DNA of 64,000 nucleotides, taken from Salinibacter grassmerensis (GTDB taxonomy: Bacteria; Bacteroidota; Rhodothermia; Rhodothermales; Salinibacteraceae). A model generated the notes under the pieces. That model had not been told where the DNA came from and did no database searches. It worked only from the letters and a program-made list of their open reading frames with translations. The position numbers were made by a program, and so were the translations under genes. Positions 2,769 to 37,940 of the stretch are shown in pieces. The stretch is taken from the NCBI RefSeq assembly GCF_947077765.1, contig NZ_CAMTTF010000007.1:62001-126000 (forward strand), given 5' to 3'. Position 1 is the stretch's first letter. Each line of letters starts with the position of its first letter.

Positions 2769-4427
2769 ATGCGTCTATCCCGCGCAAAGGTGTCGCTATT
2801 GGGGATGGCCCTCGCCGTGTCGATGGGCACTGGTGTGCTCGTCGGGTTCTGGGGACCGGACGACGACCTGTTCGAGCTCCGCAAGGGCCTCCGCATCTTC
2901 GGGGCCGTCTACGAGGAGGTGGTGACCGGGTACGTGGAGCCGGTGGACCCGGGGCACCTTGTGCGCGTGGGGGTCGACGCCATGCTGAACGAGCTGGACC
3001 CCTACACCACGTACGTCGACGAGTCGGAGAACGCGCGGATCGACATCATCACGGAAGGGCAGTACGGGGGCGTGGGGCTCGACGTGGGGCGCCGAAACGG
3101 CGACCTGACGGTGGTGTCGCCCGTTGCGGGCGCCGATGCGTATCAACAGGGGGTGCGAACGGGGGACGTGATTACTGAGGTGGCGGGCCAGCCCGCGGCC
3201 TCGCTGTCGGTCGAAGACGTAGAGGCACTGCTCCGCGGGCAGCCCGGGACCACCGTCCCCGTGACGGTGAAGCGAACGGGACGCGCTGATCCCCTAACTT
3301 TTTCGCTGACCCGAGAGCGGGTGGAGCTCCCGGACGTGACGTACCAGGGGCGTGTGGGGGCGGAGCGGGAGCTTGGGTACGTGAGGCTGGAGCGCTTTAC
3401 CCGCGACGCGCCGGGGGCTATGGAAGCGGCGCTCGATGAGCTTCGGGACACGGGGCCCCTCCAAGGGATTGTGCTCGACCTGCGGGACAACCCGGGTGGC
3501 CTGTTGCGGGCGGCCGTGCGGATCACGGCGCTCTTCGTGCCGCAGGGGACCGAGGTGGTTTCTACGCAGGGGCGCAGCGACGCCAAGACCAAATCGTACG
3601 CGACCGACCGCGTCCCCCTGTTGCCCGAGACGCCGGTGGTGGTCCTCGTGAACGGCCAGAGCGCCTCGGCGAGCGAGATCGTGGCGGGGGCCCTGCAAGA
3701 TCACGATCGGGGCGTGGTGATGGGCACGACGACGTACGGGAAGGGGCTCGTGCAGAACGTCCGATCCCTGCCCCACAACACCGCCCTCAAAATCACGACG
3801 GCCCAGTACTACACCCCGAGCGGCCGTACGATTCAGCGCCTCGACGCAACACAGCCGGACTCCGCGGCGGCAGTCCCGTCCCGGGTGCACGAGACGGCGG
3901 GAGGCCGGACCGTGCGCGATGGACACGGCATTCGTCCGGACGTGCAGGCGGCGTCCCCGTCCTTGAGTGCGCTGGAGCAGGCCCTGACGCGGCGGGGCGC
4001 CTTCTTCCGCTACGCCAACCACTACGCCGCCACCCACGACACGCTCGCCACTGGTTTTTCGGTCGACGAGTCCGACCTGGAGGCCTTCCGGGCGTGGCTC
4101 GACCGCGAGAACGTGGAGTATCCCCTCCGGGTGGAGCGGACCCTCGACTCCCTCCGCGCACATGTGGAGGCTAACAACTACGAGAGTCTTCGGGACGAGG
4201 CGGCGGCGCTGGACGCGGCGCTGGACGACACGAAAGCAGCGGCGTTCGAGCGACACGCCCCGGCCCTGATGCGTCATCTCAAGCGCGAAATTTTGGCCCG
4301 GTACGTCAGTGCCCGTCGCCGCATCGAGGCCCTGCTTCCGGCAGATGAGCAGGTGACAGCGGCGACGGATCTCCTCCACAACGCGAACCGCTACGAGCGG
4401 CTCTTGGCCCCGGAGGACGAGCAGTGA
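2769..4427 (+). CDS. S41 family carboxy-terminal processing peptidase with PDZ domain
   Basis: Secreted or periplasmic serine protease of the CtpA/Prc family. One N-terminal hydrophobic segment (about residues 10-27) acts as signal or anchor. A PDZ domain covers roughly residues 95-170 and the tail-specific protease domain roughly 200-380. The Ser/Lys dyad is visible as S300 in GQSASASEI and K325 in TTYGKG; the 25-residue spacing equals that of E. coli Prc. A helical, charged C-terminal region of about 150 residues has no assigned role. A GGAGG ribosome binding site (about 2759-2763) sits just before the ATG, which fixes the start. Confidence 0.95.
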   Translation: MRLSRAKVSLLGMALAVSMGTGVLVGFWGPDDDLFELRKGLRIFGAVYEEVVTGYVEPVDPGHLVRVGVDAMLNELDPYTTYVDESENARIDIITEGQYGGVGLDVGRRNGDLTVVSPVAGADAYQQGVRTGDVITEVAGQPAASLSVEDVEALLRGQPGTTVPVTVKRTGRADPLTFSLTRERVELPDVTYQGRVGAERELGYVRLERFTRDAPGAMEAALDELRDTGPLQGIVLDLRDNPGGLLRAAVRITALFVPQGTEVVSTQGRSDAKTKSYATDRVPLLPETPVVVLVNGQSASASEIVAGALQDHDRGVVMGTTTYGKGLVQNVRSLPHNTALKITTAQYYTPSGRTIQRLDATQPDSAAAVPSRVHETAGGRTVRDGHGIRPDVQAASPSLSALEQALTRRGAFFRYANHYAATHDTLATGFSVDESDLEAFRAWLDRENVEYPLRVERTLDSLRAHVEANNYESLRDEAAALDAALDDTKAAAFERHAPALMRHLKREILARYVSARRRIEALLPADEQVTAATDLLHNANRYERLLAPEDEQ

Positions 4428-36629: not shown

Positions 36630-37577
36630 CTACACGTCTAGCTCTTCCAGCTCTTCGGGGTCGCGCTTGAGGAGACCTTGCTTCTTGTAGTAGATCATGG
36701 TCGTGTCCAGGGTGCCGTGACGCATGCGCTCCTTCACCTCTTCGAGCGGCATGCCGTCGTTGAGCCAGAGGAGGGCCGCTGTGTGGGTGAGGCTGTGCGG
36801 CGTGACCCCCTTGCGCTTGATTCCGGCCTCCTTGAGGTAGCCGTTGATGCGGCTCCGCACCGACCGGGTTTTGAGCCGCTTCCCCTTCGACCGGTGACCG
36901 TGAGACACAAACAGTGGATCCTCGGGGTGCACGTCCGTCCGGGTGTCCAGGTACGCCTCCACGGCCTCCAGAACAGGCGGGTCGAGCGGCGCCTCCTGGT
37001 CCTTTACCTCGCGCCCCTTGCCCTGCACGCGAAGCACCGGGCCCATAAGGGTGTGCTCTAGGTCTTCTACGTCGGCCCGTACGATTTCAATCTCGCTGAG
37101 GCCGGCGTAGAGCATGAGCGAGACAATCGCGTGGTCGCGCTTGTCGATCTGGGTTGCGTCGTCCACGACCTCCTCCAGCTTCTCGATGTCGGACTCTGTG
37201 AGCACGGAGCGGGAGTGCGTCTCGGGCCGCCGGTTGCCCTTGACGCCCGTGGCCGGGTTTTCGGTCAGGTCGCCGATGTCGGTAAGGTACTGGCAGAAGC
37301 GCCGCAGGGCCGTGAGGTACGTGGATACGGACACCTGGCTTAGGTCGCGGTCCTCCATGAGGTAGCGCTTGTACTCGCGCACGCCGTCCTCGGTGAACCG
37401 GAAGTTGTTCTGCTGGACGAACCACTTCTCAAATGAGTTCAGCGAGCGGCGGTACGTGCCCACTGTCTCGTCACTTTTTTCCTCTAGGTAGTCGTCCTGG
37501 AAGGCCTGGAGATGGTCGCGCAATTCTCGGAGGGAGAGCTCGAGCTCCGGACTGGGGGAAGGGGCGTCGTCGGGCAT
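36630..37577 (-). CDS. Xer-like tyrosine recombinase lacking both catalytic arginines
   Basis: 315 aa from ATG 37577; a longer start at 37610 is possible. The N-terminal core-binding SAM-like domain (about 18-105: ETVGTYRRSLNSFEKWF, SVSTYLTALRRFCQYL) and the C-terminal catalytic domain (about 125-300) are complete. Compared with XerD, GLR becomes GLS (S161), HxLRH becomes HSLTH (H261, T264), while K187 (GKG), H287 (MRHGTLDTT) and Tyr296 (MIYYK) are kept. Two of the canonical catalytic residues are therefore missing. No dif-like or tRNA attachment site was found next to it. Confidence 0.85.
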   Translation of the reverse strand: MPDDAPSPSPELELSLRELRDHLQAFQDDYLEEKSDETVGTYRRSLNSFEKWFVQQNNFRFTEDGVREYKRYLMEDRDLSQVSVSTYLTALRRFCQYLTDIGDLTENPATGVKGNRRPETHSRSVLTESDIEKLEEVVDDATQIDKRDHAIVSLMLYAGLSEIEIVRADVEDLEHTLMGPVLRVQGKGREVKDQEAPLDPPVLEAVEAYLDTRTDVHPEDPLFVSHGHRSKGKRLKTRSVRSRINGYLKEAGIKRKGVTPHSLTHTAALLWLNDGMPLEEVKERMRHGTLDTTMIYYKKQGLLKRDPEELEELDV

Positions 37578-37940
37578 GGGCAACAGGAGAGAGTCAAGGA
37601 GGAGCCGCATTGTTTAATCAACGGCCCACGCCGGACGGTGTCAATAACGGAAGCCCACCGAATGCTCTTCTGGGCGGGTCTGGGCAGGGGGCGTCGTCTA
37701 CCAGCCCGGTAAGATTTGAACGTCGAAGTCCCAGCCCTTGCCCGGGTGCTGAAGGGAAAAGACGCTCGTTGGGTCCATCACCGCAAATCCGTAGAGAAGC
37801 AAAGAAACGATTGAACGTGGACGAGAGGCCTGCTGTACTGAAAGTGGGAAACAAAAAGGCACGATTTGAAAGTCCGTCGTCTTGCGCTATCTTCATCGGC
37901 TGGATCTCGAGAACGCCTACACGTCGCGTCTGTCCGTGCT
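37578..37940. other. divergent spacer, no gene seen
   Basis: About 360 bp between the recombinase and exchanger genes, locally richer in A/T than the genes (around 37780-37880). Likely holds promoters for both. A GATTTGAAC string on the plus strand recalls an antisense tRNA T-loop, but no T-stem forms around it. Confidence 0.4.

Follow-up and report, generated by a model that had tools for sequence, protein, structure and literature searches.

A tyrosine recombinase without catalytic arginines proposed as a polar replication-fork terminator in Salinibacter and other Rhodothermales

The window analysed in this study, a 64,000-nucleotide stretch of Salinibacter grassmerensis DNA, carries on its minus strand a gene (family A; positions 36630 to 37610, ATG at 37610) for a 326-amino-acid Xer-like tyrosine recombinase that is predicted to be catalytically dead and that we propose to be a terminator protein. 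A conserved methionine lies at position 37577 (Met12) and is found in 12 of 13 aligned close relatives, window included. Serine occupies the position of the catalytic Arg-I (Ser172, codon 37095-37097; GLS for GLR) and threonine that of Arg-II (Thr275, codon 36786-36788; HSLTH for HxLRH). Lys198, His272, His298 and, at the nucleophile position, Tyr307 (codon 36690-36692) are retained. An earlier note on this DNA had pointed out each of these replaced and retained residues, numbering them S161, K187, H261, T264, H287 and Y296 (here S172, K198, H272, T275, H298 and Y307). Its observation holds and in fact understated the case, the replacements being family-wide in 105 orthologues.

The complete fold described in the same note is borne out by a Pfam Phage_integrase match (PF00589, 77.9 bits against a cut-off of 27.1; SAM_1 also matched) and by a structure search with a predicted model (pLDDT 70), in which XerH (5jjv) aligned over 276 residues at Z 17.0 and an rmsd of 3.5. 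With a core-binding and a catalytic domain, the protein has the fold of the tyrosine recombinase superfamily; the Arg-I and Arg-II that characterize active members are replaced at S172 and T275. Its scores against the NCBIfam equivalogs lie below the cut-offs for both XerC (133.1 bits, cut-off 335.15) and XerD (111.9 bits, cut-off 329.6). Neither Tus (PF05472) nor RTP (PF02334) is among the five Pfam families that it matched at E values up to 1, in a scan of this protein alone. The predicted model, which has several stretches with pLDDT below 50, is too poor to place another arginine in the active site, and none was shown to fill it. As a separate observation, chain 14 of PDB entry 9i5v (RaiA, 401 residues) has an XerC-like N-terminal part in which the second catalytic position is an arginine, and so represents a ribosome-associated protein that bears a recombinase-like domain. 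The lead towards ribosome hibernation offered by this chain was dropped, the match being distant and the motif at the second arginine reading HVLRH.

Replacement of the arginines was followed in an alignment of 105 orthologue rows, drawn from 106 matched genomes of the class (G179 was left out). Position 172 is never arginine (S in 87 rows, T in 7, A in 6, G in 3, N in 2), and position 275 is threonine in 94 rows (V in 4, S in 3, R in 2, C in 1, a gap in 1). The lysine is kept in 99 rows, the two histidines in 90 and 88, and the tyrosine in 80. Once the 14 rows of family f3 and both rows of family f21 are set aside, T275, K198, H272, Arg178 and several other arginines are found in all of the remaining 89 rows, R295 and R297 are likewise invariant, and Tyr307 stands at 88%. 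Serine replaces the tyrosine in nine of the 105 rows, among them six of the seven f12 rows and one row each of f2 and f6, with the rest of the domain kept. Loss of both arginines is a trait of the family and not a chance event. In family f3 nearly the whole active site is gone, the exception being G159, an assembly with 8% contamination. These f3 loci (L120, L122-L124 and L127-L136) retain the gene without the active site and without the promoter motif and terminus words described below; the f3 protein may have another role or recognize another word.

Of 244 genomes of the class, 106 have an orthologue (E up to 1e-25): 104 of the 114 Rhodothermales genomes and two from f21, a family of the same class outside the order. 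Within the genus, 12 of 13 genomes have one (E up to 1e-10). Comparison of the window gene with its counterpart in Salinibacter ruber, a member of the Rhodothermales (G005, which we take to be strain DSM 13855), gave a dN/dS of 0.085 overall and 0.041 for the catalytic domain (Nei-Gojobori). For the same pair of genomes the values were 0.072 for SecA, 0.061 for the active type-B xer gene and 0.159 for the degenerate type-C xer gene. Ratios of 0.05 to 0.12 were obtained against all 11 genus relatives compared, in each case with a lower value for the catalytic than for the N-terminal domain. The neighbourhood also recurs across families, with an E2 gene upstream in 70 of 99 loci, secA downstream in 47 of 99 and, further out, genes for L25, Pth, a pyrophosphatase-type pump and RecN. 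These neighbours were named by reading the sequence and not by library search, and many of the loci are too short to show any; at the window locus the E2 gene is not adjacent. The wide distribution, the low dN/dS and the recurring neighbours together indicate a chromosomal gene that has been kept and not a pseudogene. The earlier note, which had argued from the complete fold and the open frame that this is no simple pseudogene, is supported here. It had also named relatives with both arginines, together with relaxed selection, as findings that would speak against its reading; Arg-I occurs in 0 of 105 rows, and the dN/dS is that of a constrained gene.

Upstream of the start codon, at positions 37637-37650 on the minus strand, lies the element CCGTTATTGACACC, a proposed autoregulatory site that covers a -35-like TTGACA (37639-37644). 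The window has a single copy of its 9-mer CCGTTATTG. A possible -10-like TTGATT lies 17 nt downstream of TTGACA (37616-37621, minus strand), where f11 promoters have TATTAT; a consensus promoter scan did not report this hexamer. The common form of the element, CCGTTATTGACA, likewise overlaps the -35-like TTGACA. Its core, CCGTTAT, precedes the gene in 75 of 103 loci (105 loci less two with too short an upstream region), on the coding strand bar one extra copy, and is present in 2.9% of shuffled sequences. Control promoters from the same loci practically lack it (secA 0 of 46, E2 1 of 52, recN 0 of 15). The core is absent from all 14 typical f3 rows and both f21 rows, and from 12 of the 87 other upstream regions; six of these belong to f1, two to f12, one to f9 and the remaining three to f14, where no region has it. 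At 43-44 bp downstream of the first copy, seven f13 genomes carry a second, in which TTGC (all seven) or TTGCA (five) stands in place of TTGACA. The exact 13-mer TCCGTTATTGACA gave 36 matches in 113 genomes, 28 of them within 210 bp upstream of the gene, against 5 for the reversed word. A regulon was looked for and discarded: only 8 exact 13-mers lie away from the gene, compared with the 5 reversed matches, so there is none at this stringency. The position of the motif suggests that the gene is autoregulated.

A related word is found elsewhere in these chromosomes. Nine of the 17 CCGTTATTG matches in the window's genome continue into CAA (the reversed 9-mer has 8 matches), and the corresponding sister word, CCGTTATTGCAA, occurs 516 times in 113 genomes of the order as opposed to 23 times reversed. 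The two words differ at the 3′ end, the promoter word ending in GACA and the terminus word in GCAA. Exact CCGTTATTGCAA copies number 8.7 to 10.5 per genome in seven families (f4, f5, f8-f11 and f14), 6.5 in f1, 6.2 in f12 and 5 in the one f7 genome; f13, f15, f6 and f2 keep the protein and average 1 to 2.2. The 16 f3 genomes have 8 sites, against 4 copies of the reversed word. The two f21 genomes, in which the protein is present, have 9, eight of them on contigs along which the strand switches once. In 39 genomes picked from families f16-f20, which are without the protein, 33 sites were counted (0.85 each) and 11 reversed words. Sites are also present in G011, G160 and G199, where the gene was not found, perhaps because of gaps in the assemblies.

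The listed sites cluster and switch strand at the xer locus. On 16 listed contigs with a type-B or type-C xer gene, all 105 sites point toward xer, and 83 lie within 100 kb of it (median distance 27 kb). G180 and the genome that holds the window are among those represented. An f3 contig that has only one site and a broken type-B match was not counted, and in draft genomes the sites are scattered over contigs. The family A gene itself is usually not beside the sites, the exception being the f14 genome G237, where it is 2 kb from the first of three. The same terminus word is found in genomes with type-C xer only, with type-B xer only, and with XerC and XerD. None of these proteins can therefore be the common binder, and of the Xer-type proteins seen, the window family alone is shared by all three kinds of genome.

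The S. ruber chromosome was used to place the sites relative to the terminus. The GC skew switches sign between stretches that begin at 1,853,001 and 1,873,001, and the cumulative skew (400 kb analysed) peaks at 1,870,843, between the innermost sites at 1,858,675 (plus strand) and 1,880,309 (minus strand), which have one mismatch each. Allowing up to one mismatch gives 12 sites, 11 of which point inward and one outward. Every word 9 to 12 bases long in the 400 kb was also ranked by observed over expected counts, requiring at least 5 inward and 0 outward copies. Words containing TTATTGC came top at each length, with GTTATTGCAA found 9 times inward and never outward (0.06 expected). The xer genes are located at 1.8738-1.8761 Mb, with dif-like palindromes at 1,873,733 and 1,873,767. 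Skew was tested in one further genome, G161, where at 225-kb sampling it is consistent with sites around the terminus. Separately, the G161 samples from 1.125 to 1.368 Mb show positive GC skew within the negative-skew arm, which suggests a large inversion.

Palindromes of this kind, defined as ATAA, 6-8 bases and TTAT with at least 7 of 11 arm matches, were found in 10 of 14 loci around xer, against a mean of 0.5 and a maximum of 3 in shuffled sequences. Two have perfect 11-bp arms, one beside a type-C gene in G242 and one beside a type-B gene in G237, with a different sequence for each type. The ATAA/TTAT requirement is taken from the dif site of E. coli. The TTAT common to the terminus word and the dif-like arms was set aside as evidence because the scan demanded ATAA and TTAT, so that the likeness is partly built in; palindromy beyond TTAT is not.

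XerD scored above the curated cut-off in 114 of 238 genomes of the class and in none within the Rhodothermales. The order's other xer genes are of two types, B (matched in 43 of 114 genomes) and C (62 of 114). The RKHRHY set is intact in all nine type-B rows and in five of eight type-C rows, the three exceptions all belonging to the genus Salinibacter. The Rhodothermales seem to do without a canonical XerD and to rely on a single-recombinase module of either type B or type C, in most cases with a dif-like palindrome next to it (L216 in G242, L228 in G237, L218 in G005 and L230 in G000, C3:75000-85000). In the cases seen with both types present they are adjacent, and the type-C gene of Salinibacter is degenerate, as if type B had replaced it. 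In a phylogenetic tree the window family, type B, type C, XerC and XerD form one clade each, with the window family outside XerC and XerD. Adding three plasmid recombinases, after removal of seven rows from the first tree and with one plasmid row on a long branch, caused the window family to join them with support of 98/97, which points to an active plasmid-type recombinase as its likeliest ancestor. On the plasmid side we also observed that pSMQ-316 and two Flavobacterium plasmids have the related recombinase gene near a gene for a DnaB-like helicase. In one Flavobacterium plasmid (L410), a single copy of GTTATTGCAA lies at position 3557, between these two genes.

We consider it probable that the protein is a polar replication-fork terminator, an arginine-less clamp that acts on asymmetric sites flanking dif and is autoregulated. 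On balance, we also favour the wider view that the Rhodothermales and f21 possess a third, independently evolved fork trap, in which a plasmid-derived recombinase deprived of its chemistry serves as a one-way clamp on single Xer-like half-sites. Under this model, an active plasmid-type tyrosine recombinase would have lost both phosphate-activating arginines and come to hold, uncut, a single asymmetric half-site of the Xer-like type (consensus about TCCGTTATTGCAA). Some ten of these would flank dif and read toward it. A fork bound for dif would meet the 5′ (CCG) side of a site and pass, whereas a fork that had run beyond the terminus would meet the 3′ (GCAA) side and be stopped, so that the trap would hold fork fusion near dif. 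The protein would limit its own supply through the variant site CCGTTATTGACA over its own promoter. The sequences themselves show that the arginines are lost while the gene is under purifying selection, that its promoter carries the motif, how many sites there are, which way they point and that they lie at the terminus, and that dif-like palindromes accompany xer. From these features we infer that the protein binds the sites, arrests forks and represses itself, and which side of the site blocks.

Published fork traps, according to excerpts of one account, consist of ter sites that are not palindromic, are oriented toward dif and arrest forks that come from dif (PMC6549158); excerpts of another place a ter site in the promoters of tus and rtp (PMC10331603). 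Here, too, there are several non-palindromic sites, pointing at xer and its dif-like palindromes, and in the two genomes tested by skew they lie around the replication terminus. A site in the terminator's promoter may have its counterpart in the CCGTTAT core, with the difference at the 3′ end of the word; that one protein uses both words is something we infer, since they end in GACA and GCAA. In both S. ruber and G161 the gene is oriented head-on to the fork, as judged from skew and gene strands. The supposed blocking side of the promoter site would therefore face the fork, and the model requires this site to be a variant that does not block. Several families fit less well. The gene persists in f3 without sites and would thus have another function there; f21 has sites and no promoter motif; f14, f12, f9 and f1 have sites together with some loci lacking CCGTTAT; f13, f15, f6 and f2 have the protein but few exact sites; and the 39 genomes without the protein hold three times as many sites as reversed words.

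The foremost alternative, which we regard as unlikely, is that the protein binds the polar sites without stopping forks and instead orients FtsK or organizes the terminus, in the manner of KOPS or MatP. Strictly polar sites flanking xer genes with dif-like palindromes do resemble FtsK-orienting words. However, FtsK-orienting octamers are far commoner than the roughly ten copies of this terminus-crowded 12-mer, and MatP recognizes palindromic sites. Moreover, a binder with a site in its own promoter is the pattern described for Tus and RTP in the excerpted literature.

It is more doubtful still that the protein is an autoregulated transcription factor and nothing else, with a different protein at the terminus sites and some other cause for the likeness of the words. 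The differing 3′ ends would fit this explanation, as would the terminus sites of f14 and f21, which have no CCGTTAT at the gene, and the precedent of MrpR, a dead tyrosine recombinase able to repress (PMC10516654, in part). It is harder to reconcile with the secondary promoter copies of f13, all seven of which have TTGC and five TTGCA, or with the family's standing as the only Xer-type protein seen to be shared by the type-B, type-C and XerC/XerD genomes that have the same terminus word. Among the three guesses of the earlier note, a DNA-binding regulator came nearest: the promoter motif suggests autoregulation, but the larger body of evidence concerns polar sites at the terminus.

The note's other two guesses, a silent partner of an active Xer at dif and a recombinase with altered chemistry, now appear very improbable. 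Both could draw on the lysine, histidines and tyrosine kept in most rows. A partner, however, would have to work with either of two active xer types, whose dif-like sites have different arms; the narrower idea of a partner dedicated to one particular Xer was rejected, the family being found with type B only, type C only and XerC/XerD, alongside the same terminus word. Altered chemistry is disfavoured by the replacement of the tyrosine in several lineages (the serines of f12, f2 and f6) and by the erasure of the active site in f3. That the gene is a decaying, functionless copy has next to no probability: the lost arginines and the erased f3 site might suggest decay, but it is already contradicted by the selection data in 11 relatives, by presence in nearly the whole order and by neighbours conserved across families.

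No report on replication termination in Salinibacter, and none on a terminator derived from a recombinase, was seen among the titles and openings of abstracts listed by a literature search in which subscription journals and preprints were mostly not represented; the excerpted text of PMC3025954 does not name Salinibacter. As of 2019, fork traps of two unrelated kinds were on record, confined to four clades (PMC6549158, excerpts), and their purpose is still debated (PMC10331603, excerpts). If the proposal is correct, a third trap, built from a site-specific recombinase, extends across most of an order, which would mean that such traps evolve repeatedly and would again indicate plasmid genes as one source of them. 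Binding without cutting would then be the wanted property and would explain the strong selection on a recombinase without arginines. Salinibacter ruber would provide a culturable organism for tests.

The arrangement resembles Tus/Ter of enterobacteria, which, in the excerpted accounts, combines several non-palindromic sites toward dif with a site in the promoter of the terminator gene, and for which a plasmid origin has been proposed (PMC6549158, PMC10331603). It differs in the protein family (no Tus Pfam match at E up to 1), in the word and in the location of the gene, usually away from the sites. RTP/Ter of Bacillus, in the descriptions excerpted, likewise has polar sites around the terminus and autoregulation (the latter proposed here), but RTP belongs to another Pfam family and acts as a dimer on paired half-sites, whereas the word considered here is single, asymmetric and about 12-13 bp long. 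The plasmid recombinases of Streptococcus thermophilus pSMQ-316, Staphylococcus and Flavobacterium are the family's best plasmid matches, at no more than 36% identity; unlike the window protein, they have intact catalytic residues (RKHRHY) in the three examined of 1215 matching records. XerH/difH and XerS/difSL are single recombinases encoded beside their dif (PMC5357621, in part), as type-B and type-C xer apparently are; XerH and XerS are active enzymes, whereas the window protein is predicted to be inactive and has a word of its own. TnsF of Tn6022, as portrayed in excerpts, has an inactivated tyrosine recombinase domain for site-specific DNA recognition and an active ancestor-like relative (PMC10293859), but it is a transposon target selector with zinc fingers and a partial catalytic domain. 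MrpR (YopR), the master repressor of SPbeta, also has the tyrosine recombinase fold without recombination: its catalytic Arg and His are changed to Ser, Val and Asn, the lysine and tyrosine are kept, and it binds repeated DNA elements (PMC10516654, excerpts). It matched in the structure search at Z 10.2-10.6 and an rmsd of about 17, such Z values being common to the whole fold. MrpR is a phage repressor of prophage genes, unlike the chromosomal gene described here with its sites around the chromosome terminus. To the extent that the excerpted accounts allow, MrpR and TnsF show that recombinases lacking these residues can act as DNA-binding proteins.
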